From: a virus
Reading direction: 5' to 3' (one strand)
DNA length: 37,486 bases
IMG/VR virus record: IMGVR_UViG_3300046010_005519
Span: 1-37,486 of that record
The translations under genes were made by a program, and so were the position numbers. This document shows, in pieces, positions 3,211-28,302 of this stretch (positions within the stretch are counted from its first letter, which is position 1; each line of letters starts with the position of its first letter). The notes below the pieces were generated by a model, which had not been told where the DNA came from, searched no databases, and saw only the letters and a list, made by a program, of their open reading frames with translations.

Positions 3211-5934
3211 TTAAAGTAACCACGATATATCTTCTGAACCGCCAGTATATGGGTTTTCTATTTTATATGGATTTACTATACCAGATGCATTATATGCACT
3301 ATCATAGTGTGATTTGTTTGTTGCTATATTATTCAACATATTGCGGGACATGTCCATACCATGTTGTCTCAATTTAAATGATGTTTCGCGCAAATAGCAG
3401 CCGATACTACAAGCCATAACTAAATCATCGTTGTATCCATTTTGCGCTTCAGCTCGGCCATTCTTCCACAAGAACACCTTCATTTCTTCCATCAACCTAT
3501 GTGAGCGTATTACTATACCTCTGTCACCAATTGCTTCTTGAAATTTACCTATTGCTATAGGACGTGTATTTGAAGACATTGTAAAGCCAGGTACCATTTG
3601 TTTGGTATCTAAATATGGGTCAAAATACGAATTGGAGTTCAGGTTTCCACTCTTAGGTGAATAGTATAGGTTAGTATATCCTCTCTCCAATATTGTTTGT
3701 ATTGTAGACCATCCAATATTTGAATTTTCAGGTGCTAGTAATGCATTGTTATATTCAGTAGCTATACCTACTAGTAAATGGCCGAATTCTTTTGTATTTA
3801 ATTGCCCTCTATATTCCGCAACTTGTGTAAAATTCTCTGAATCAAATACATGGAATGTAGAGTAATCTTTACCATCACCTCTAGACACATCAGCTACCAC
3901 CATATAGTCTCTAGAATAGTCAACTGGTTCCCATACCCATAGATTTTGGTCCAATCCACGTTTCTCTAATGGGTCTGTAATATATGTTTGTTCATAGAAT
4001 GATATATCTTCAGGTACAAATACTGTATCACCTGAGGTACTGAAGTCGCAATCACAATTATGTACCACACCATATTCCGTTACATACGTATGGGTATTTT
4101 CTACTTCAAAATTATATACGGTGGTTGGTTTGTCTATCTTATTAAGTATAAGTTTAATTTTAGGTATACCATCAATATATGAAAATCTATTTTTATCGTG
4201 TGATATATTGATCTGATGTTCTTGGATTCGTTCTGAATATGTCTTATTGTTTGAGTCGTGTTTACTTTTTAGTAAATTCAATACATATTTAACTCCATGT
4301 TCTCCGGAAGGGAATGTTGAGACACCTTTATTTAGTGATATGTTATGGGTTCCTAGTACATTATTTATATATAACATATCATATATTAACCTTTCGGATG
4401 TTAAGTTAAGTGATATATTGTATTCTTTTTTTAACATCCCATCACCCAACATCATTCCATCCAATATACCTCGCAAACATTCTGTTGATGCATTTTGATA
4501 TACTAAATCACTAATGTATTTAGTTTGGCAATATTTTTCTCCATTAAAACATATGTCTATAAATTGCCCAAATAAATTAGATTTAATATACATATTTCCA
4601 CTTCCAGCCCATGTTTTAGATACATAATGGGCAAATATATCTATACCTAGTATATTTGTTAATTTTTTCTCTAAATCAGCAACCCACGCATTCCGTTCAG
4701 TTAAAGCATTATATGAGTAACACACCACATTTTTCCATTTAGAACCTTCTGCGTAGTATAAACCTAATATATATCCCAAGTCATAGTCAAATTTGATGAA
4801 TCTAGGACATTTATGTTTTTTAGTTATCCATATATGAGTATCGTTATGTTTAACAAAATGTCTAGGTGAGGTTGATGTAATGAAATCTTTAAGATCTATA
4901 GTGTTGGAGGTTGTTACATGTTCAACTTTAGGGAAAAGATTTACCCAACTATCTTTAACATTTTTAACTTCTACCCATTCATCATCTACTAAAAATGGAT
5001 GATTACCAGTAACATATTTAATCCTTCCATTTAATGTAGATGAAATTTCATATATGTCAGTAGATTCATGTGAAAATGTTTTAACTACTTTATTGTATGT
5101 ACCATCATGAGATAATACAATATCTCCAACATTAATATCTGCTATAAATTTTGGTCCAGTTTTAGTATATACTACTACATCCTTACTAAAACATTCCTGT
5201 GCGGCCATTCGAATACCTAAATCTTGGTCCTGTCTATCTCTCCACGATTGATCTCGTTCAGGATGTACACCCCAAGGTAATTTAATTGGTAGAAATGAAT
5301 TTTCTCCCATTTCAGCTCCTACCCATGTTTTATGGAACCAGTTACCAGTACCGTAAGGTGTAGATAATGCAATACAACCCCCACCGGTAGCTAAGGTTTG
5401 TTGAGCTGAAGCCCATATCTCACCTATGTTGTTGATGAATGCTGCCTCATCTATTAGTAGCAATGAAACGGCTTCAGATCGCCCAGCATCACTTGAAGCA
5501 GATGTTGCTTTGATTTGAGATCCGTTGTTTAAGCGGAGTGTAAGTTTATTGAATTCTTGAGGTTTGTCTTTTTCTTTTAACCAAGTTGGTAAATTGTCGT
5601 ACATGAATTTTACCTTGGTTACCATATTTTTAGCTGTATCTTGCTTGGTAGCGATACATAATATATTTTTGTCTTGGTGGAATAACATTAACCATATTGA
5701 ATAACCAGCAGCTAGGGTAGATATACCTAACTGTCTAGATTTGAGTATCATTGTATATGGGTTCTCCTGAAATAACGTTAGTACCTTCTCCTGGAATGGG
5801 TATAGGTTAAATTGTATACGTCCTCGTTTTGGGTGTTGGATGTAGCAATACTTCTTCATAAAGTATGCTGGTGAAGATGCACATCGGATGTATTCTTCTT
5901 TAATTATTTGACGTATATCCTTTTGCTCTGACAT
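3211..5934 (-). CDS. Terminase large subunit (T4 gp17-like) interrupted by an intein
   Basis: This is the 907-aa precursor of the DNA-packaging motor. Without the intein (residues 248-626) the mature protein is 528 aa, a normal TerL length. The N-terminal ATPase has a deviant Walker A KSRQLGIST (65-73), Walker B LLLIDEAAF (158-166) with the DEAA catalytic pair, and the coupling motif ALSTPYGTGNWF (189-200). The C-terminal RNase-H-like nuclease has D682 in VVADVSRGDG, an acidic site near PENSN (735-739) and the pair D836-D837 in NGYNDDLVMAC. The usual P-loop lysine is replaced by Ile, as seen in some RQxGxST terminases. The N-terminus (IRQIIKEEY) also resembles the recurrent IREEI peptide. It starts 3 bases after the upstream membrane-protein gene. 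Confidence 0.95.
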   Translation of the reverse strand: MSEQKDIRQIIKEEYIRCASSPAYFMKKYCYIQHPKRGRIQFNLYPFQEKVLTLFQENPYTMILKSRQLGISTLAAGYSIWLMLFHQDKNILCIATKQDTAKNMVTKVKFMYDNLPTWLKEKDKPQEFNKLTLRLNNGSQIKATSASSDAGRSEAVSLLLIDEAAFINNIGEIWASAQQTLATGGGCIALSTPYGTGNWFHKTWVGAEMGENSFLPIKLPWGVHPERDQSWRDRQDQDLGIRMAAQECFSKDVVVYTKTGPKFIADINVGDIVLSHDGTYNKVVKTFSHESTDIYEISSTLNGRIKYVTGNHPFLVDDEWVEVKNVKDSWVNLFPKVEHVTTSNTIDLKDFITSTSPRHFVKHNDTHIWITKKHKCPRFIKFDYDLGYILGLYYAEGSKWKNVVCYSYNALTERNAWVADLEKKLTNILGIDIFAHYVSKTWAGSGNMYIKSNLFGQFIDICFNGEKYCQTKYISDLVYQNASTECLRGILDGMMLGDGMLKKEYNISLNLTSERLIYDMLYINNVLGTHNISLNKGVSTFPSGEHGVKYVLNLLKSKHDSNNKTYSERIQEHQINISHDKNRFSYIDGIPKIKLILNKIDKPTTVYNFEVENTHTYVTEYGVVHNCDCDFSTSGDTVFVPEDISFYEQTYITDPLEKRGLDQNLWVWEPVDYSRDYMVVADVSRGDGKDYSTFHVFDSENFTQVAEYRGQLNTKEFGHLLVGIATEYNNALLAPENSNIGWSTIQTILERGYTNLYYSPKSGNLNSNSYFDPYLDTKQMVPGFTMSSNTRPIAIGKFQEAIGDRGIVIRSHRLMEEMKVFLWKNGRAEAQNGYNDDLVMACSIGCYLRETSFKLRQHGMDMSRNMLNNIATNKSHYDSAYNASGIVNPYKIENPYTGGSEDISWLL
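4057..5193 (-). mobile_element. Intein with LAGLIDADG homing endonuclease in terminase
   Basis: Residues 248-626 of the terminase precursor form a 379-aa class 1 intein. The N-terminal splicing block starts with Cys248 (CFSKDVVVYTKTG). Block B is VTGNHPFLV with His312. The endonuclease has two dodecapeptides, LGYILGLYYAEG (acidic E396) and LRGILDGMMLGDG (acidic D498), so both metal-binding acids are present. Block F is VYNFEVENTHTYV. The C-terminus is GVVHN with penultimate His625 and terminal Asn626, followed by Cys627 as the +1 nucleophile. All splicing residues are intact, so splicing is expected to give AAQE-CDCDF. The insertion lies at the junction of the ATPase and nuclease domains. Confidence 0.95.
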
Positions 5935-5937
5935 ATA

Positions 5938-6366
5938 TTATTTGTATATGATTGATGTGATTAATATTGCTAGGGTACATATTAATCCTCCACCCATTAC
6001 CTTAATTAGTGAGCGCTGTTTATTTCGCTTATTTTCTAGTATCGTATTTTCTTGTTTTAAATTCGATATTAATTGCTTTTGGGTGGTATATATAGTATCT
6101 TTGTAGTTTAATTGCTCTATATAATTGATTTCTTTTCGCTTATATATTTCAATTACTGTATCTTGTTGTGTTATTTTTTGTTCTTGTTGATATACCAAAT
6201 CATTAACTAAATTTAATTCGGATGACATTGAATCACATTTGATTAAATCAATAGCTATTAATTTAGCTACACGATAAGGGAAGCATACTTTACTTGTATC
6301 TATTTGCGAAAAAACTTGACAATTGAGAAGGAGTATAAAGCTTAATATCATTGATTTTACTACCAT
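5938..6366 (-). CDS. Secreted coiled-coil protein with C-terminal membrane anchor, spanin-like
   Basis: This 142-aa protein starts with a hydrophobic signal sequence, SMILSFILLLNC, ending in QVFSQ, which looks like a Bacteroidota signal-peptidase site. A lipobox reading at LLNC is possible but poor because Asn precedes Cys. A short conserved-looking stretch follows (CFPYRVAKLIAIDLIKCDS), then a long coiled coil (roughly residues 50-112) and a C-terminal membrane helix (GGGLICTLAILITSIIY). Its first 77 bases overlap the end of the next upstream gene in another frame, as in Rz/Rz1 pairs. The likely role is outer-membrane disruption in lysis, inferred from architecture and overlap. It ends 3 bases before the terminase start. 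Confidence 0.7.
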   Translation of the reverse strand: MVVKSMILSFILLLNCQVFSQIDTSKVCFPYRVAKLIAIDLIKCDSMSSELNLVNDLVYQQEQKITQQDTVIEIYKRKEINYIEQLNYKDTIYTTQKQLISNLKQENTILENKRNKQRSLIKVMGGGLICTLAILITSIIYK

Positions 6367-6637
6367 AATATTTCTTAATATTGATTATTTGTGTTTTGGT
6401 ATTGGATATTTGATTTGATAGTGAATCTAATTTATGTTGGTGTTGGTTAATAGAGGTGGTTAGATTAACTTGATCTTTATTTAACTGTTGAATCAATACG
6501 TTAATACTATCTATCTGTTTCTCCTGTGGGTAATAATTTGGAGGAGTTGGGTTGGGTGATGTGAATATATTAAACAACAATAAGGCAATACATATTATTA
6601 TTGTTATTATATAAATATGTTTTGCCTTATTGTCCAT
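6290..6637 (-). CDS. Small membrane-anchored coiled-coil protein, inner-membrane spanin-like
   Basis: This 115-aa protein has an N-terminal membrane helix at about residues 8-26 (IYIITIIICIALLLFNIF). A Pro-rich spacer (TSPNPTPPNYYPQ) follows, then a periplasmic-type coiled coil (IDSINVLIQQLN through NTKTQIINIKKYYG). That is the layout of Rz-type inner-membrane spanins: an N-terminal anchor with helical periplasmic domain. Its 3' end overlaps the following secreted coiled-coil gene by 77 bases in a different frame. No endolysin is visible in this window, so the lysis assignment rests on topology and gene overlap. A generic structural membrane protein is the alternative. Confidence 0.7.
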   Translation of the reverse strand: MDNKAKHIYIITIIICIALLLFNIFTSPNPTPPNYYPQEKQIDSINVLIQQLNKDQVNLTTSINQHQHKLDSLSNQISNTKTQIINIKKYYGSKINDIKLYTPSQLSSFFANRYK

Positions 6638-6668: not shown

Positions 6669-7613
6669 CTATTTAATTTTTTTTAATTTTTCAATTGCTG
6701 ATTCAATTCTAAATTTTTCAGCAGTTAATGCTTTACGTTTTTCCATATCTGATGAACCTGACATTGCTTTAAGTTCAGCTGTTTTGTCATCTAATGCTTT
6801 TTTCAATACACCATATTTGTCTTGATTAGATGTACCTTGAGGTTCAGCACCCTTTTCAGCAGCAGCTAATGCTTTTGAATCTTCGTCTTTTTCTGGTGGT
6901 GTTGGTGTTGCTTTAGGCGTTGTTGCTTTAGGTTCAGTAGCTGGTTTTTCCATTGGTTTTCTACCACGTTGTCCTGGGGTGTATTCACCTAATGCTTTAG
7001 TAACTGCTCGTTCTGTTTGAGGTCCACCTAAAGTAGCTGTATAGTTTGGATCGTCACCATATTTTTCTTCCTGTGCCAATAGTGCATCCTCTACTTCAGG
7101 TGCTAGTTCAGGGCGTTTCTTTTTACTTAATATAATTTTAGATATATCCTTTGCTGTAGCTTCAGGGAATTGATCTTTTAATTTTTCTGATGATACTTTA
7201 ATTGCATTGAATAATTCAGCACCTTTTTCTCCACCGATGAATGGCATTTCATTTAATGTTTCTTCGTCCAATTGGTCTTCCTCCAATGTAGCGCTAGCAC
7301 CTGGCTTAGTTAAATCTTGCTTGCGTTTATTTAATGCAGCCATTTTCTTATCTATTGCTACGCGTTCAGCATCCATTGCTGCTTTATCTTCAACTGGTCC
7401 TTCATTTACGTTCAATAGATTTGCTAATTCTTCTATTTCTCTAATTTGGTTATCTAGTGAATCGCGTAAGGATTTAAGTTCTTCAACTTGTTTTGCCCAG
7501 CTATTAACTTGAGATTGTTGTGCTTGAGGTGAATCGAACATTGGTTCATTGTCTTCCGCCATTCTATTAGCTAATTCTTCGCGGATCATTTCCTGTAAAA
7601 GTGATTTTTTCAT
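6669..7613 (-). CDS. Charged coiled-coil protein with IREEL peptide and AT-hook-like motif
   Basis: This 314-aa protein begins MKKSLLQEMIREELANRMAE, a clear member of the recurrent N-terminal peptide set, with a possible prohead-protease-like site MAE before Asp. Two coiled-coil segments follow (about 40-65 and 80-105), an Ala/Thr/Pro/Lys-rich middle, an RGRKP element near residue 218 that resembles an AT-hook, and a final coiled coil. There is no catalytic motif. Composition and position beside the packaging genes suit a prohead core or DNA-associated internal protein, but that is inference. The ATG follows a TATTTATA box by 19 bases and a 27-base gap. Confidence 0.75.
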   Translation of the reverse strand: MKKSLLQEMIREELANRMAEDNEPMFDSPQAQQSQVNSWAKQVEELKSLRDSLDNQIREIEELANLLNVNEGPVEDKAAMDAERVAIDKKMAALNKRKQDLTKPGASATLEEDQLDEETLNEMPFIGGEKGAELFNAIKVSSEKLKDQFPEATAKDISKIILSKKKRPELAPEVEDALLAQEEKYGDDPNYTATLGGPQTERAVTKALGEYTPGQRGRKPMEKPATEPKATTPKATPTPPEKDEDSKALAAAEKGAEPQGTSNQDKYGVLKKALDDKTAELKAMSGSSDMEKRKALTAEKFRIESAIEKLKKIK

Positions 7614-7640: not shown

Positions 7641-8171
7641 TTACAGACCCATGGCCTGTTTAATTTTATGTATTCTTTCTTCGGTAGAACCCGTTAGTTC
7701 TGCGTAGTTTTTTATTTGTCCAATATGCTTATTGCATATACTTTGTATTTCATTATCTATAGCCATTCTATATACCGGATCTATTGTTCTAACTCCATTA
7801 TCTTCAATATCAACACCTTCTGGTGATATATAAAATATATAGTCGTATTCCGAAATTAAGTTGTATGCTAGCGAGCGGAAATCTGCTTTTTGGTAAAATG
7901 GTATAGATCTAGATAATTCGGTAAATGCAATTACATCAATTATAGTTCGATCAGTAATAATGTTTGGATGTAATAATTCTTCTGCTCTATAACTTGCAAA
8001 TATTATCTGACCTAATATTGTTGATTCTGTATTTAATTTGACTCCTTTATCTCTTATTTCTTTACTTTTTTCAGTCTCAAATATATAATGTTTAAACTCT
8101 GGTAGTTTACTTAATTCTTTTACTAATGTAGATTTACCTACACTCATCGTCCCACAAAATCCTACTTTCAT
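7641..8171 (-). CDS. NadR-like / AAA_28 P-loop nucleoside kinase
   Basis: This 176-aa protein starts MKVGFCGTMSVGKSTLVKEL, with Walker A GTMSVGKS at residues 7-14. Next come ETEKSKEIRD (36-45), ILGQIIFA (52-59), then IITDRTIIDVIAFTE with an Asp-Arg pair typical of AAA_28/NadR-type kinase domains. Related phage proteins are common and probably phosphorylate a small nucleoside or ribosyl substrate; the substrate here is unknown. Its ATG overlaps the stop of the homing endonuclease in an ATGA. A fragment encoding MAKIGFTGS, resembling its own first residues, lies 0.9 kb upstream beyond the endonuclease, so the gene appears to have been interrupted at its P-loop codons and its 5' end rebuilt. Confidence 0.85.
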   Translation of the reverse strand: MKVGFCGTMSVGKSTLVKELSKLPEFKHYIFETEKSKEIRDKGVKLNTESTILGQIIFASYRAEELLHPNIITDRTIIDVIAFTELSRSIPFYQKADFRSLAYNLISEYDYIFYISPEGVDIEDNGVRTIDPVYRMAIDNEIQSICNKHIGQIKNYAELTGSTEERIHKIKQAMGL

Positions 8172-9076
8172 ATACTTTCTTTTAAAATGTTATCAATAAT
8201 TTTATAATTACTATATTTAATTCTAATTAATCTTATATTATTTTCTAAACAATAATGTGTTTTAATAGCATCATTAATGTTAATATACTTAAATCCTTCT
8301 TCACCTCCAAATAATTTTACAGGTTCATAATGTTGCTTTCCATCAAATTCTATACATACATTTAAGTGTGGGATATAGAAATCAAATGGTAATGTTCTTA
8401 CATTTTTACAATCAGGAAATCGATGTTGAAAAATATATTCTATGTTTTTTTCCTTTAAATATTTTTCTATATATTTTTCCCCCTTAGAATTTCTACATTC
8501 AGGGCATCCCTCACCCCTTAAGTGGGAGTTGGGTGATTGGGTAAATATTCCGTGATTATTACATATTATATTAAGTTTTTGATTGTATCTAGTATATAAA
8601 GTATTACTATAGTCATACAAATCTCCATGTATATATTGGGCTCTTTTAACAAATTCGTTTATATCTAATACTTTATCATTAATTGCCGATAATAATTTTT
8701 CTTTACCACATTCAGGACATCCTTGCTTTTGTTTGTAATGATGAGAATAACTTTGTTTAAATTCACCATGTTTCAAACATATTATTATGGATTTACTTGT
8801 GGATGATATGTAATTAAATTTAGAATAATCATAATCATGACCTAATGTTTTGAATAGTTCAATAACTTTTATAGTATCAAGTGTGGAATTTCTTTTAGAA
8901 CAATCAGGACAACCCACTTTTTGACGGAGATGCCCCCTAGGCCATGTTTCGAAATCACCATGAATTTTACAAGTTAATGTAACTTTATGATCCATTTTTA
9001 CGAAATTACAATTATGGTAATCGAAATTATCACCATGAATTTCTTTGGATCTTTCTATAAAATTTATTGTTTTCAT
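8168..9076 (-). CDS. Homing endonuclease, Vsr-like/EDxHD type with three zinc-finger repeats
   Basis: The 302-aa protein has three tandem repeats of about 55-70 residues (roughly 6-58, 70-122, 142-194). Each ends in HGxF...H...GCPxC and is probably a zinc-binding DNA-recognition unit. The C-terminal nuclease domain has E200 in SKGEKYIEKYL, D232 in LPFDFYIP, and IEFDGKQHY (242-250), the Vsr-like fold signature of EDxHD and related free-standing homing endonucleases. It sits between a hairpin and a P-loop kinase gene whose first codons are partly duplicated upstream, as expected for insertion at a conserved P-loop site. All acidic residues are present, so it is probably active. Confidence 0.9.
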   Translation of the reverse strand: MKTINFIERSKEIHGDNFDYHNCNFVKMDHKVTLTCKIHGDFETWPRGHLRQKVGCPDCSKRNSTLDTIKVIELFKTLGHDYDYSKFNYISSTSKSIIICLKHGEFKQSYSHHYKQKQGCPECGKEKLLSAINDKVLDINEFVKRAQYIHGDLYDYSNTLYTRYNQKLNIICNNHGIFTQSPNSHLRGEGCPECRNSKGEKYIEKYLKEKNIEYIFQHRFPDCKNVRTLPFDFYIPHLNVCIEFDGKQHYEPVKLFGGEEGFKYININDAIKTHYCLENNIRLIRIKYSNYKIIDNILKESI

Positions 9077-10612: not shown

Positions 10613-11125
10613 TTAATCTAAATTACCGTCATCCGCAGGGTTTACATTTCCTGTATAATTTGGGTTCCATTTTTTAGTATTGTATTCCATATATTTACTT
10701 AAACTAGAATGTAAATCAATTAATTCATCATATGGTAATTGGTTGAGTGCTGATTTAAGTTCAGTTTCTGAGGATGTTTTTGTTTGGTTAAATAGAGATT
10801 GGAGTGCACTATCTTTGTCTTGCATTCTACTACTATTTAATTTACTAAATATACCTCTAATAAGTGAATTTTCTCCGCTACGAGATGGGTATATATCTTC
10901 ATGTATTGGGGGGTGATTCGGTAATAGTTTGATTTGATTGTGATTTAATGTTGTAAGATTACCTGTTGGTAATTTAGCTTTAACCACGAACCCATCGTCT
11001 GATACTACGATGTGTTTTGTTCCCATATACATAAATGTATCTCCGGGTGAATATTTTGGTGTGTTTTCGTTCAATATAGAGGTAATTTCCTCTTTAATTA
11101 TTCTGCGAATGTCAGATTTGTTCAT
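10613..11125 (-). CDS. Small protein with IKEEI N-terminal peptide, function unknown
   Basis: This 170-aa protein begins MNKSDIRRIIKEEITSILNE, one of the clearest copies of the recurrent N-terminal peptide, and LNE before Asn fits a prohead-protease-type site. Residues about 24-70 (YSPGDTFMYMGTKHIVVSDDGFVVKAK) look like a small beta-barrel, SH3- or KOW-like domain. The rest is helical and Ser/Asn-rich. It overlaps the preceding cupin-like gene by 14 bases and is the last gene before a strong hairpin. No catalytic motif is seen. It may be a packaged internal protein. Confidence 0.7.
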   Translation of the reverse strand: MNKSDIRRIIKEEITSILNENTPKYSPGDTFMYMGTKHIVVSDDGFVVKAKLPTGNLTTLNHNQIKLLPNHPPIHEDIYPSRSGENSLIRGIFSKLNSSRMQDKDSALQSLFNQTKTSSETELKSALNQLPYDELIDLHSSLSKYMEYNTKKWNPNYTGNVNPADDGNLD

Positions 11126-20789: not shown

Positions 20790-21437
20790 TTATATAAATT
20801 TCTTTAATTGTTGCTTATTGTCTTTAATCCAATCTAACCATATACGTTTTACTATAGGCCAATCTGTTTCGGGGTTGTTGAAATTTAATATATTTTCTTG
20901 ATGCCATTCTTCCATAGCTGTTGCTAGTGGTATATTTTTAGTTTTTGCTCGTTTAATTAATCCTTTAATAAATGCCGGTATCTCTTGAGGTGAAGTGTAG
21001 TATTCAATAGTTGTTTCGTAATTTGAATATTTGACGTTCATATCTTCAAAATTCTGTTGACCTATATGTTCCAACTCGTGTGTTACTGTTTCTTTAACTT
21101 CAGCTACCATATCACTAAATGCTTGTGGGAATGTTGTAGGATTGAATTCAATAGACATATTGAATGAATTCATATCCGAATTAGCGGATATAGAATATGG
21201 TTGAGATAGATTAGATACAGGTACAAAACGTGCCACTAAATCAAATTCAGCTTCCTCTCCACCACGAGTTATGGTGTATGTTAAGTTAAGTGTTTTTTTG
21301 CGCTTAAATGCGTTGATTATTTGGCGTGAAATGTCCAGTATATATGAATCAAATGTACCCTCATTTAATTGAATAGTAGGGTTAGTAATTAATTTTATTT
21401 CTTCCCGTATTATTGATATTAATTGTTGTTTAGTCAT
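20790..21437 (-). CDS. HEXXH zinc metallopeptidase with IREEI peptide
   Basis: I chose the ATG at 21435-21437, which gives a 215-aa protein starting 10 bases after the previous stop; longer versions would run into that gene. It begins MTKQQLISIIREEIKLI and soon has QLNE before Gly (about 23-27), a prohead-protease-like site. The catalytic motif is VTHELEHIGQQ (H120, E121, H124), with E152 in SPQEIPAF as the likely third ligand. The fold resembles small phage zincins. It could cut host or virion proteins after injection, but the target is unknown. It follows another HEXXH protein. Confidence 0.8.
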   Translation of the reverse strand: MTKQQLISIIREEIKLITNPTIQLNEGTFDSYILDISRQIINAFKRKKTLNLTYTITRGGEEAEFDLVARFVPVSNLSQPYSISANSDMNSFNMSIEFNPTTFPQAFSDMVAEVKETVTHELEHIGQQNFEDMNVKYSNYETTIEYYTSPQEIPAFIKGLIKRAKTKNIPLATAMEEWHQENILNFNNPETDWPIVKRIWLDWIKDNKQQLKKFI

Positions 21438-21447
21438 ATTACTATTT

Positions 21448-22413
21448 TTACGAGTTAGGTAAAAGGGTGTTTTTAAATTGTCTAAGTAATAACCCACCCT
21501 GTTCATATGCTTCACGTTCAATTTCCTTCAAATTATCATCTTCATTTACATTAGTAGTGTTGATTTCAGGTAATCGATCCTCCATATTTTGTATATGATG
21601 AATATATTCATGACATATTGTAGCAAGAACATCACGTGGAGATCGGTTCAATGAATATACTACTATTGTGGGGTTTTGGGGTATGTAGTAACCGGTTTTA
21701 CCAAAGAAATTAGCTGCATTTGCTACATCGTTGTCAATTATTTCAACGCGAGGTAATGGTTGTACGTTCATTCCCTGTTTAATCATATATTCATTCAACG
21801 ATTGGATATAACCTAACAATAATTGACGTTGCTCCTCAACGGGACTACTTTCATTTAATGGTTGTTCAGGTGTTAATATATCTAAATATTCTTGAGTAGA
21901 TATACCTTTAGGTAAAAAATGAGATATGTCTTGATTATTATTAATTGATGCTCTTAATTCAGTTGCACTAATACCTCCCTCCAATATACCAGCATCGAAT
22001 GTTCTAGCATTCATGTATTCTGGGTCTCTACCTATTTTAACGAATCTATCCTCTTCACTTTTACCACAAGCAGCAATAAATTCCATATCTTGGTGGTTCT
22101 TAATTTCATTTAATATACCAGTTACGGGAGATGGTTTGTCGGATATTTGAATGGTTAATTTATTGTTGAATAATTTTTCGTTGTATAAATTCCATATTGC
22201 CTCACTTTGATGTGGGGTAATTCCTTCATGTATTTTTGGTGATATTAATATTACTACTTTATCTGCAACATCCATTAATTTTTTAGCTACCATAGCGTGT
22301 CCGGCATGTGGTGGTTTAAATTTACCTGGGTATATAGCCAATGTAGGTTTGTTTTGGGGGAGTATCTCCTCGTTAATGAAGGGTTGAATAATGGATTGTA
22401 CTAGTGGATTCAT
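21448..22413 (-). CDS. Nucleotidyltransferase fused to a HEXXH metallopeptidase
   Basis: This 321-aa protein begins MNPLVQSIIQPFINEEIL, with INE before Glu. Residues about 23-180 form a cytidylyltransferase-type domain: LAIYPGKFKPPHAGHAMVA with HAGH (36-39) and GGISATELR (146-154, an ISxTxxR motif), as in NMN/FMN/CTP-type nucleotidyltransferases. After a linker rich in Glu (about 183-215) comes a zincin domain with ATICHEYIHHIQN (H268, E269, H272) and an acidic helix EIEREAYEQG as possible third ligand. Both active sites look intact. The nucleotide substrate is unknown. It overlaps the kinase gene by 4 bases. Confidence 0.85.
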   Translation of the reverse strand: MNPLVQSIIQPFINEEILPQNKPTLAIYPGKFKPPHAGHAMVAKKLMDVADKVVILISPKIHEGITPHQSEAIWNLYNEKLFNNKLTIQISDKPSPVTGILNEIKNHQDMEFIAACGKSEEDRFVKIGRDPEYMNARTFDAGILEGGISATELRASINNNQDISHFLPKGISTQEYLDILTPEQPLNESSPVEEQRQLLLGYIQSLNEYMIKQGMNVQPLPRVEIIDNDVANAANFFGKTGYYIPQNPTIVVYSLNRSPRDVLATICHEYIHHIQNMEDRLPEINTTNVNEDDNLKEIEREAYEQGGLLLRQFKNTLLPNS

Positions 22414-23168
22414 ATGTTCGAGAATATATTAATTTTACTTTTAGCTGTCTGTAATGTGTCGAATGTAGGTAATGTTTTTACCATATTTTCTATGTCGTAA
22501 TTTAATTGTGCTTTATCTGCGTCCGATTTTGCTTGTTCTTCTGGTGTTTTTGGTTTACCAGTAGCTGTTGATTGTTTAATATACGAATCAGCTAGTGCGG
22601 TAGAAAACGATTTATTTGCATTGTTTGGATCGTTATTTATTAATATGAAATTATCACCAAATTCACGTGCGTATGTATCTATATTGCGATTTACATCGCG
22701 CCATGTTCTAAGTACAATTCCAGGCATTAAACTACGTTCACGTTCAGCATTACGTTGAAGTGAAGTTAATGGTGAAACATATATCATTAACATTAATGTA
22801 GTGTAGCCGAGTGATTCCAATTCCTGTTTTTTCTTGAGTATTGGATTTGATGCAGCACCGGTACCGTCAATAATTACACTTTGCCTACCCTCCAGTGTTT
22901 GTGCAAGTTTATCTTGAGTAATTTTACGTGATTGAGCTTGAATTTTAGCTGCTTGAGATAGTTGTTCGGGAGTGAAATTAGTTTGTTTAAGTCCAATCCC
23001 ACTCGCCTTCAACATTTCTTCATATGTGTCATCTGAATTGATGGTTGTGAATGATTGGGGTAGTAATTGTTTAGATAAATATGATTTACCACTACCTGCT
23101 GGGCCTGCTAGGAATATAGCTTGTGGGTTATTTTGTACTTCTCTTAATAATTGAACTAAACTAATCAT
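22410..23168 (-). CDS. Zeta-toxin-like P-loop kinase
   Basis: This 252-aa protein has Walker A AGPAGSGKSYL at residues 21-31, then TTINSDDTYEEML (substrate-binding SDD), KITQDKLAQTLEG, SVIIDGTGA (Walker B-like) and RNAERERSLMPGIVLRTW, an Arg-rich lid. The organisation matches zeta-toxin/AAA_33-type kinases that phosphorylate small sugars or nucleotides, or act on RNA ends in phages. The N-terminus MISLVQLLREVQNN resembles the recurrent helix. The C-terminus after 195 is a charged linker. It couples to the nucleotidyltransferase-peptidase gene by ATGA. Confidence 0.75.
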   Translation of the reverse strand: MISLVQLLREVQNNPQAIFLAGPAGSGKSYLSKQLLPQSFTTINSDDTYEEMLKASGIGLKQTNFTPEQLSQAAKIQAQSRKITQDKLAQTLEGRQSVIIDGTGAASNPILKKKQELESLGYTTLMLMIYVSPLTSLQRNAERERSLMPGIVLRTWRDVNRNIDTYAREFGDNFILINNDPNNANKSFSTALADSYIKQSTATGKPKTPEEQAKSDADKAQLNYDIENMVKTLPTFDTLQTAKSKINIFSNI

Positions 23169-25356: not shown

Positions 25357-28302
25357 TTAAAATAATGCATTCCAAGAGGTCCCATTATAGTAATATAATA
25401 TACTACTACCTGCTGACCCTGAAGCTATAATCATTCCCTCGGTTGGTGTAGGGGTGGTTGTTCTAGGTGTTAGTACTAGTATATCTTTTACATTTAATGA
25501 ACCGGTAATTAACGCAGAACCAGTTATATTTAAGCTACCAGTTAAACCATATGATCCAGTTAATTGTTTAGTATTAATATATAATTTTTTACCATTATTG
25601 TTACTACCACTAGCTACTAATAGATCTCCATCAGATCCAGATATGATTAATACATTATGTAATTCATCTAATTCATATCCGTTATCGATACGAACATACA
25701 TTGAACCATTATTGGTTTGGATTCGTAGAGCTTGACCTAAACGAACTGCGTGAAGTGGAGGAACTGGTTCATATCCTATAATTGAGCCCGTAGGTCCTAG
25801 GTATAAAAGTTGTCCAGCAGTGAATGTGTCTGTATTAATTCCTAGCAATTTACCTTCAGTCATTACATACCCAAATGCTTGATCCGCTATAGTTTCATTT
25901 AATATACCCAAGGTATTAGCGGATACGCTATCGGCATCATATGATGCTGTTGATATTAATGCGTTATCTCCAGTTGCGCCAGATATTCTTACGACTTTAC
26001 CTTTTGCTATAGAGGCACCAGTAACATTTTTAACATATATTAATACATCAGATGTATTTAATGATGTAGTAGCATATGATGCACTAATTGTGTTTGTTGT
26101 GTAAGATGATGTAGCTGCATATGATGCACTTGTTACATTCAATACATATGATGCACTAATTGCAATCGAAGCAGTTTCTGCATATGACGAGCTTGTTTCG
26201 TAATTGATTTCATACGATGCACTTATAGCGTAAGATGCTGTAGTAGCGTAAGATGCACTAGTTGCTATTGATGATGTTGTCGAGTACGATGAACTAACGG
26301 CAATTGATGCAGTAGCAGCATATGAAGAGCTAGTAGCAATAGATGCTGTTGATGCGTATGATGAACTTACAACATAAGATGATGTTGCAGCATATGATGA
26401 ACTTACAACATAAGATGCCGTTGCAGCATAAGATGCAGTAGTAGCAATCGATGAAGTAGTAGCATACGATGAGCTTACAACGTAAGATGATGTTGCAGCA
26501 TATGATGCACTAGTAGCAATGGACGCCGTTGCAGCATATGAAGCGCTTGTTGTGTTTAATGCGTATGAAGCACTAGTAGCAATTGATGCAGTAGCTGCAT
26601 ATGAAGCACTAGTAGATGTGGGAGCGTATGATGCACTAAGAGTACTCAATGCATATGAAGCGGTGCCTAATAAGCTACCAGTTATACCACCAGTTACATT
26701 TAAGCTACCTGTTATTGATGTAGATCCCGTTACATTTAAACTACCTGAAATTGTAGTTGGTTTATGCATTGATATACTTCCAGTAAATACTTGAAATATA
26801 GGTGCATCATTGCTGTCATTTACAAATAGAATAGATCCACTATTTGTATCTCCGTCGTATATGGTAAGTATATCTTCTACACTACCTACAACATTAAATA
26901 GAGGTGAGGATGAACCAGAACCAGATACAATTAATGAACCGGATATTAGTACGGTTTGGCGTAATGTATTAACATAAGATGCAGTTGCAGCGTGTGAAGC
27001 ACTAATTGTACTTATTGAATAAGATGATGTTAATGAGTAAGATGCACTTGTTGAATTACGTGAATAGGATGATGATAATGCGTATGAAGCACTTGTAGCG
27101 TTTAATGCATATGAAGCACTTGTTGATGTATTTGAGTAAGATGAAGTGGTAGCATAAGATGCACTAGTTGAGTTGTTTGAGTAAGATGATGTAGTAGCAT
27201 AAGATGCACTAGTTGAATTAATAGCATATGAGGCACTAGTGGCAATAGATGCAGTTTCTGCATACGAAGAACTTGTTTCGTAGTTAATTTCATATGATGC
27301 ACTTACAGCATATGATGCTGTTTCTGCATATGAAGCACTAGTTGCGTTTGTAGCGTAGGAAGCACTTGTTGAGTTAAGTGAATAGGAAGCACTAGTTGAG
27401 TTATTTGAGTAAGAGGATGTTGTTGCGTATGAAGCACTAGTAGTATTCAATGAGTATGAAGCGCTAGTTGAATTAATAGCATATGATGCTGTAGTAGCAT
27501 ATGATGCACTAGTAGTGTTTAATGAATACGAAGCACTAGTTGAATTGTTTGAATAAGATGATGTTGTAGCGTAAGAGGCACTAGTTGAATTAATAGCATA
27601 TGATGAACTAGTAGCAATTGATGCATAAGAAGCACTAAGAGCACTCAATGCATATGAAGCGGTGCCTAATAAGCTACCGGTAATACCACCCGTTACCTCT
27701 AAGCTACCTGTAATACCTACAGATCCGGTGAATTGGGCAGAACCAGTAAATGGGAATGGTGAAATATATCCCGTCAAATAAGATGCAGTTAATGCATATG
27801 AAGCACTAGTTGAATTAATAGCATAAGATGCACTAGTTGCAATAGATGCAGTTTCTGCATACGATGAACTTGTTTCGTAATTAATTTCATACGATGCGCT
27901 TACAGCGTAAGATGCTGTAGCAGCATATGATGCACTTGTTGAATTAACAGCATATGAAGCACTAGTTGAGTTACGTGAGTAAGAAGAAGTAATGGCATAT
28001 GATGCACTAGTAGAGTTTAATGCATAAGATGAACTTACAACATATGAAGCAGTAGCGGCATACGAGGCACTAACGGAGTTTGGTGAGTTTAAGGCCCAAG
28101 ATGCAGTACCATGTAGTGATCCAGTAAATCCAGATGCTGAAACTTGTCCTGTTATGTTAGTTGGTCCTACTAATGTTAATGAACCAGATAATGTTATATT
28201 ATATGCTTCTACTCCGGTGAATGCATCTATAGATTGAGTTACGTGGTGGGCTTCAACAACTTGTCCAGTTAATATATTTACGTTGCTTAATATCTTTGCC
28301 AT
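25357..28302 (-). CDS. Repeat-rich tail fibre protein (SASYA repeats)
   Basis: The 981-aa protein starts MAKILSNVNILTGQVVEAHHVTQSI. Most of residues 60-730 consists of short repeats around SASYA, TASYA and SSSYA, interrupted by TGSLNVTGGITGSL-type segments. The stretch beginning IATSASYA is reused, and three long copies of EINYETSSSYAETASI lie about 200 and 360 residues apart. The C-terminus is a distinct domain: VLIYVKNVTGASIAKGKVVRISG, then an LGILNETIADQAFGYV region, NGYELDELHNVLI, and a final PTPTEGMIIASGSAG...NGTSWNALF tip. Similar repeats occur in fibres of aquatic phages. It probably forms a long shaft, with the C-terminus as receptor-binding tip. Confidence 0.85.
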   Translation of the reverse strand: MAKILSNVNILTGQVVEAHHVTQSIDAFTGVEAYNITLSGSLTLVGPTNITGQVSASGFTGSLHGTASWALNSPNSVSASYAATASYVVSSSYALNSTSASYAITSSYSRNSTSASYAVNSTSASYAATASYAVSASYEINYETSSSYAETASIATSASYAINSTSASYALTASYLTGYISPFPFTGSAQFTGSVGITGSLEVTGGITGSLLGTASYALSALSASYASIATSSSYAINSTSASYATTSSYSNNSTSASYSLNTTSASYATTASYAINSTSASYSLNTTSASYATTSSYSNNSTSASYSLNSTSASYATNATSASYAETASYAVSASYEINYETSSSYAETASIATSASYAINSTSASYATTSSYSNNSTSASYATTSSYSNTSTSASYALNATSASYALSSSYSRNSTSASYSLTSSYSISTISASHAATASYVNTLRQTVLISGSLIVSGSGSSSPLFNVVGSVEDILTIYDGDTNSGSILFVNDSNDAPIFQVFTGSISMHKPTTISGSLNVTGSTSITGSLNVTGGITGSLLGTASYALSTLSASYAPTSTSASYAATASIATSASYALNTTSASYAATASIATSASYAATSSYVVSSSYATTSSIATTASYAATASYVVSSSYAATSSYVVSSSYASTASIATSSSYAATASIAVSSSYSTTSSIATSASYATTASYAISASYEINYETSSSYAETASIAISASYVLNVTSASYAATSSYTTNTISASYATTSLNTSDVLIYVKNVTGASIAKGKVVRISGATGDNALISTASYDADSVSANTLGILNETIADQAFGYVMTEGKLLGINTDTFTAGQLLYLGPTGSIIGYEPVPPLHAVRLGQALRIQTNNGSMYVRIDNGYELDELHNVLIISGSDGDLLVASGSNNNGKKLYINTKQLTGSYGLTGSLNITGSALITGSLNVKDILVLTPRTTTPTPTEGMIIASGSAGSSILYYYNGTSWNALF
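25980..28200 (-). repeat. Degenerate SASYA-coding repeat array in the fibre gene
   Basis: The DNA repeats in units of about 15-33 bases encoding (T/S)ASYA-type peptides. Longer copies that encode the EINYET segment begin near 26162, 27242 and 27839, and two copies encoding ITGSLLGTASYAL lie near 26660 and 27660. Synonymous differences between units show that the array is old or under protein-level selection rather than freshly duplicated. Confidence 0.8.

Follow-up and report, generated by a model that had tools for sequence, protein, structure and literature searches.

An overlapping gene pair upstream of the terminase

The window analysed here—a 37,486-nt fragment from an IMG/VR virus record (IMGVR_UViG_3300046010_005519, positions 1–37,486)—carries on its minus strand, at 5938–6637, two overlapping genes that we refer to as P2 and P1 (Table 1). 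P1 is the downstream gene; it begins within the 3′ end of P2, in the +1 frame, and ends 3 nt before the start of the gene for the terminase large subunit (TerL).

Table 1 Features of the P2/P1 locus in the window
Feature	Position	Strand	Description	Basis
P2 gene	6290..6637	−	115 aa; i-spanin position	ORF, relatives' loci n=92 (aligned/listed), AF2
P1 gene	5938..6366	−	142 aa; o-spanin position	ORF, family alignment A3, AF2
P2/P1 overlap	6290..6366	−	77 nt; two frames encode P2 C-terminal tip and P1 signal peptide	
P2 membrane helix	6563..6616	−	residues 8–25	hydrophobic segment and AF2 helix 3–26
P2 rod	6341..6529	−	helix, residues 37–99	AF2
P2 tip motif FFANRY	6296..6313	−	residues 109–114	
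P1 signal peptide	6307..6366	−	residues 1–20; probable cut before Q21	[FS]SQ and Bacteroidetes Q-rule
P1 conserved helix	6232..6276	−	residues 31–45; D40 and D45 invariant (A3)	AF2
P1 rod	6013..6234	−	helix, residues 45–118	AF2
P1 C-terminal hydrophobic tail	5947..6000	−	residues 123–140	
Terminase large subunit	3211..5934	−	next gene downstream of P1; intein-like insert	phrog_2 1e-39

AF2 modelling with the family alignments returned for P2 (pLDDT 88.8) a membrane helix (residues 3–26), a long helix (37–99) and a short one (103–114), and for P1 (pLDDT 88.7) a signal helix (2–19), a helix at 31–43 and a single helix at 45–141, which runs unbroken for about 97 residues and continues into the hydrophobic tail. 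Together with the ORF coordinates, the protein lengths and the 77-nt overlap in another frame, these models bear out an earlier sequence-only reading of the locus, which had described a coiled-coil protein with an N-terminal anchor overlapping one with a signal peptide, a coiled coil and a C-terminal helix.

P2 combines the N-terminal membrane helix and the (predicted) periplasmic domain of an i-spanin, here its helix and rod, and four residues of its tip (F109, F110, R113, and Y114) are invariant in 42 of 42 rows of the P2 alignment (A4). Three ‘Rz-like spanin’ PHROGs profiles matched 7, 3 and 2 of the 42 P2 members weakly, amid generic coiled-coil matches—a circumstance we count against a spanin reading—and none matched P1. 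A profile search of the PDB likewise retrieved generic coiled coils for P2 and one weak match for P1, and neither protein had a Pfam match above the cut-off.

In P1, the signal peptide ends in FSQ (86) or SSQ (2) in all 88 pairs listed (collected as described below), such that a Gln directly follows the presumed cleavage site in each. In Bacteroidetes, signal peptidase I exposes a Gln in most of its substrates, which is then cyclised (accessible text of PMC5837995), and the FSQ site suggests that P1 is probably cut by this enzyme before Q21. A Cys within the signal peptide is absent from 86 of the 88 pairs listed; the window's own P1 has a single one, C16 (‘LLLNC’), otherwise found only at locus L097, and both proteins keep FSQ. 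We thus found no conserved lipobox in P1 among the 88 pairs listed, in agreement with the initial remark that a clear lipobox is missing.

In hydrophobicity, the P1 tail ranks below the P2 helix (median −1.35 versus −4.3, on a crude home-made scale of approximate residue values, suited to ranking only), and the 12 residues preceding the tail carry a mean net charge of +3.5. By the positive-inside rule, such a charge lies on the wrong side for an inner-membrane helix whose N-terminal side is outside. Because of this wrong-sided charge and the o-spanin gene position, an outer-membrane location of the P1 tail is favoured; the analogy with u-spanins, on the other hand, would favour placing it in the inner membrane.

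The window holds further features outside the pair. Many minus-strand ORFs (6669–7613, 10613–11125, 20790–21521, 22410–23168, 3211–5934, and others) share an N-terminal motif like ‘M..L(K/R)..I(K/R)EE...L.E’, which might be a T4-like capsid-targeting or prohead-core signal. The insert of the terminase gene (3211–5934) gave a LAGLIDADG-type match (phrog_11023, E 0.075) and matches to phrog_36001; a homing-endonuclease-like gene (8168–9076; phrog_559, 1.1e-68) sits between genes that are closely adjacent in relatives; and 25357–28302 encodes a long protein of degenerate ‘SASYA’ repeats, by eye perhaps a tail fibre.

P2 and P1 relatives are found as pairs

A tblastn search of 50,697 phage records linked P1 (E 7e-5) and, weakly, P2 (E 0.3) to Flavobacterium phage immuto (four records), where gp186 (P1) and gp187 (P2) are neighbouring genes. 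Scans of viral contigs with P1 or P2 as single proteins yielded nothing beyond a 100% identical contig, and a two-row P2 alignment retrieved only that contig and immuto; larger alignments were needed. A first scan of IMG/VR, with a two-row P1 alignment, returned 205 P1 relatives, and 80 loci were retained; among 43 non-redundant ones, 42 had an overlapping P2 upstream, the exception (L032) starting at a contig edge. For the second scan we used P2 alone (pattern [EQ]LxxFF[TAS][ENK]RY) and obtained at least 336 relatives, again keeping 80 loci; among the matches listed, an overlapping P1 lay downstream in 50 of 50 non-redundant loci. Thus, the pairing of P2 with P1 is far beyond chance. Pooling the two scans without redundancy left 88 pairs (among the matches listed), to which the first contributed 42 and the second 46. 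Alignment A3 holds 42 P1 rows, as one of the 43 loci (L006), whose coordinates ran past a stop, was omitted, and A4 holds 42 P2 rows.

Each of 25 long records contained one P1 (25/25); a further weak P1 match in one of them (G020; 2.5e-4) was located at the place of P2. Scanning genome contigs with A3 gave no relative, which, resting on one short pattern, is weak evidence of absence. We also considered covariation in rod length as evidence for side-by-side packing and rejected it: the Spearman correlation of 0.52–0.69 over 82 pairs (five that lack the strict P1 motif were omitted, as was L114, which a contig end truncates) fell to 0.30–0.45 in 12 clusters (p 0.34–0.14), and the rods do not match closely in length in two distant homologous pairs (72 and 83; 89 and 86).

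These two pairs are gp291/gp292 of Sphingomonas phage PAU (hhalign 96.6 and 97.7%) and a pair in the uncultured 636-kb phage LR756504 (96.0 and 95.6%), given here in the same order as their rod lengths. In both, the frame is unchanged and SSQ or FSQ is locked to FF by the same one-base offset (see below), and neither retains RY at its place in the tip. By eye, the neighbours of the LR756504 pair are not lysis-like, which we count against a spanin reading. Since PAU-related phages infect Chryseobacterium and Tenacibaculum (accessible text of PMC10537231), the host label of PAU deserves care.

One stretch of DNA serves two reading frames

Throughout the 88 pairs listed, the overlap measures 74–140 nt and keeps a single relative frame, with the presumed o-spanin gene following the i-spanin gene in the order that embedded, overlapped or adjacent spanin genes have. 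The FF..RY tip of P2 and the [FS]SQ site of P1 are written in the same bases at constant phase, the signal site starting exactly one base after the first F codon of the tip (88/88 pairs listed). Codon usage mirrors this lock. The P1 codon before the signal site has T as its third base in 88/88, where codons for the same residues in the rest of P1 predict 48%; the first F of P2 needs this T. Similarly, the second F codon of the tip is TTC in 88/88, versus 39 of 203 P2 F codons outside the overlap; the Ser of P1 needs it. While these counts come from related, and so not independent, sequences, and the second scan selected for FF..RY, both reading frames of the overlap look selected.

Lysis genes adjoin the pair in part of the family

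In immuto, the pair closes a series of genes that runs endolysin gp191 (GH19; phrog_181, 3e-63), holin gp190 (Phage_holin_4_1, 2.2e-6), gp189, gp188, gp187 (P2) and gp186 (P1), at 46 kb and thus far from the terminase at about 119 kb. Over the family, among the matches listed, 19 of 42 first-scan loci had an endolysin within 4.5 kb upstream of the pair, 10 a holin within 2 kb and 26 TerL within 2.5 kb downstream; for the 46 second-scan loci, the corresponding numbers were 1, 0 and 41. The upstream endolysins belong to three unrelated types: GH19 (n=15), a phrog_33083-type (n=2) and Amidase_2 (n=3; of two members tested, one scored above and one below the Pfam cut-off). Four of the 88 pairs listed have both an endolysin upstream and TerL downstream, and five have neither.

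As many as 63 of the 88 pairs listed have a terminase downstream and no endolysin found upstream, which we count against a spanin reading. Some endolysins may lie off the contig, because only 21 of the terminase-context loci hold at least 3.5 kb upstream; in four longer records of second-scan loci, a GH19 gene sits about 12, 13, 30 and 51 kb from the pair. The window, like its nearest relatives, belongs to this terminase group: the terminase follows the pair, which has no lysis gene nearby, and scans of 25 window proteins against Pfam or PHROGs (for some, against one library only) revealed no recognisable endolysin. The isolated flavophages Harreka, phi14:2, phi19:1 and Nekkels_1, which have a related GH19 endolysin, showed no such pair within 3.5 kb, a further count against a spanin reading. 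For two-component spanins, a place beside holin and endolysin is customary but not obligatory. In T4-like phages, lysis genes are not clustered (PMC6139136, section 15). The proposal to look for conservation of the overlap beside a lysis gene was partly borne out: the overlap is kept (42/43 loci; 50/50 of those listed), the lysis-gene neighbourhood only in part of the family.

This split context bears on two alternatives. P1 and P2 could be virion or packaging proteins, given that TerL lies close downstream at the frequencies above (the second-scan figure being among the matches listed) and that the genes after the pair are, in most relatives, terminase and portal. A signal peptide and membrane helices speak against such a role, as does the position of the pair in immuto and others, next to endolysin and holin and far from the terminase; we regard this as the least probable reading. 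P1 and P2 might instead form an envelope complex with another task—a regulator of lysis timing (an antiholin or lysis-inhibition sensor), or a superinfection-exclusion or envelope-remodelling device expressed from a late operon. Both proteins could be held in the inner membrane, and a context divided between holin/endolysin and terminase is what any late gene may show. In relatives, however, the endolysin already has a distinct holin and another small membrane protein next to it, and no such regulator is known to be built as an overlapped pair of rods; we therefore judge this reading unlikely.

Two further gene types near the pair are recorded here. Directly upstream of the endolysin, L017 (4221–4661; also cluster members L018 and L024) encodes a signal-peptide protein that by eye resembles a small outer-membrane beta-barrel. 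Directly before P2, L020 (5050–5658) and L033 (5088–5699) have an endolysin-like gene with a ‘SAGCQV’ stretch that resembles an L,D-transpeptidase active site.

Comparison with known spanins

With overlapped two-component spanins of the lambda Rz/Rz1 kind, the pair shares an upstream type II inner-membrane protein with a periplasmic coiled coil (as predicted for P2) and an exported downstream partner that begins within the upstream 3′ end in the +1 frame, the gene order of known overlapped spanins (PMC6139136, section 8); moreover, holin and endolysin adjoin the pair in part of the family. It differs in three respects. P1 lacks the conserved lipobox of an o-spanin (86 of 88 P1 proteins, pairs listed, have no signal-peptide Cys) and carries instead a putative signal-peptidase-I site and a hydrophobic tail at its C-terminus. 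The shared stretch encodes the conserved tip of P2 and the signal peptide of P1. Finally, paired periplasmic cysteines for an intermolecular disulfide, a frequent spanin feature, are missing: 62 P1 and one P2 have a periplasmic Cys, and both partners do in 1 of 87 pairs (listed). Because lipobox and paired cysteines are absent, the pair is not a two-component spanin as presently defined.

Unimolecular spanins, such as gp11 of phage T1, resemble P1 in being exported and in having a periplasmic rod and a C-terminal membrane-like helix. P1 might thus be a u-spanin, lipidated in the window at C16 and with P2 as an accessory: u-spanins combine a lipid at the N-terminus with a membrane helix at the C-terminus, the P1 tail and the ‘LLLNC’ sequence fit this layout, and a 2025 survey states, in its accessible text, that Bacteroidetes phages use only u-spanins, with o-spanin candidates lacking a lipobox having been removed (PMC12596118). 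Yet the tail is present while the Cys needed for a lipobox is missing from 86 of 88 P1 (pairs listed), FSQ follows C16 in the window, and P1 at any rate always stands with P2, which is present wherever the contig allows. By eye, the hypothetical protein gp70 of Cellulophaga phage Nekkels (L172, 5851–6324), with a lipobox-like N-terminus and a C-terminal membrane helix, is a u-spanin. Its lack of relationship to P1 (hhalign 4.2%) is a further point against this reading, which we consider very unlikely.

A third type has been foreseen: type I proteins, whose membrane domain is C-terminal, could also serve as spanins but were not searched for (PMC6139136, section 15). P1 is a candidate of that type; the difference is that section 15 names no example and conceives such a protein as an i-spanin, whereas here a conserved family with a partner is at hand and P1 occupies the o-spanin gene position.

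We also looked for separate spanins in relatives. Translating the immuto genome (five pieces) in six frames gave seven lipobox-like ORFs, two of them annotated genes, gp030 (75 aa) and gp122 (217 aa). Both lack a C-terminal membrane helix, and the genome yielded no u-spanin. Across the 88 loci listed, the 3.5 kb around the pair contain eight lipobox-like matches. Two of these are P1 itself (window contig, L097), three are membrane helices of P2, and the remaining three include one resembling gp030; no conserved separate o-spanin is among them. Counting against a spanin reading of the pair, the unlinked 75-aa lipoprotein gp030 could serve the immuto group as its own o-spanin; a general role as a third component was rejected, with matches in just 5 of 25 records.

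Our searches of open-licence literature listed no description of the P2/P1 pair. It may have been overlooked because spanin surveys demand a lipobox and because annotated gene starts truncate the P1 signal peptide, most of which is removed in immuto gp186 (L001, 11950–12351) and PAU gp292 (L176, 4176–4634).

A lipid-free spanin equivalent as the preferred reading

We propose, with a probability of roughly 60%, that P2 and P1 are a lipid-free, overlapped two-component spanin equivalent of Bacteroidota phages with a role in disrupting the outer membrane. The computed results behind this proposal are the conservation of the pair, the frame lock, the apparent selection on both frames, the lack of a conserved lipobox and a lysis-gene neighbourhood in part of the family; since support is drawn from the architecture and this partial neighbourhood, it is a spanin-like working that it argues for. 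The initial suggestion of an unusual spanin design recalling Rz/Rz1 is strengthened by the endolysin and holin next to the immuto pair, by the three endolysin types and by the weak Rz-like matches; it finds no backing in the window itself, which has no lysis gene nearby, nor in a lipobox.

We infer the following course of export, cleavage, complex formation and function for the two proteins. They would act at the last step of lysis, when the Bacteroidota outer membrane is disrupted after holin and endolysin have acted. P2, in the i-spanin place, would be a type II inner-membrane anchor with a periplasmic rod of about 80 residues and a conserved FF tip. P1, by gene order in the o-spanin place, would be exported via Sec and cut by signal peptidase I before Q21, leaving the conserved helix at a free N-terminal end, followed by a rod of about 80 residues and the C-terminal hydrophobic tail. 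The tips of P1 and P2 may then bind each other and the rods zip towards their anchors, so that, once the peptidoglycan is gone, the membranes would be drawn together or torn. With its tail in the outer membrane, P1 could complete a two-membrane bridge; with its tail in the inner membrane, the rods would stand side by side and their tips act on the outer membrane without a lipid.

More tentatively, the pair could represent a lipid-free class of two-component spanins that is widespread among the myo-, jumbo and huge phages of Bacteroidota, with the P1 tail in the outer and P2 in the inner membrane, conserved tips that meet mid-periplasm (the two rods, each about 12 nm, together spanning about 24 nm) and SNARE-like zipping that fuses or tears the membranes. 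We see this broader version as possible, although doubtful.

Implications for lysis by Bacteroidota phages

Section 15 of PMC6139136 raises the open question of how the outer membrane is breached by phages that have no recognisable spanin, and Bacteroides and Croceibacter phages are among those listed there as spanin-less, as far as the accessible text goes. Both spanin surveys require a lipobox (PMC6139136, PMC12596118; accessible text), and P2/P1 is a conserved candidate that lacks one. With an isolated phage and its host at hand (immuto, Flavobacterium sp. LMO8), the question is directly testable. The FF tip, locked one base from the FSQ signal site, provides a sequence handle for finding more such pairs, and the overlap itself is a case in which one stretch of DNA, read in two frames, encodes the tip of a membrane protein and a putative signal-peptidase site.
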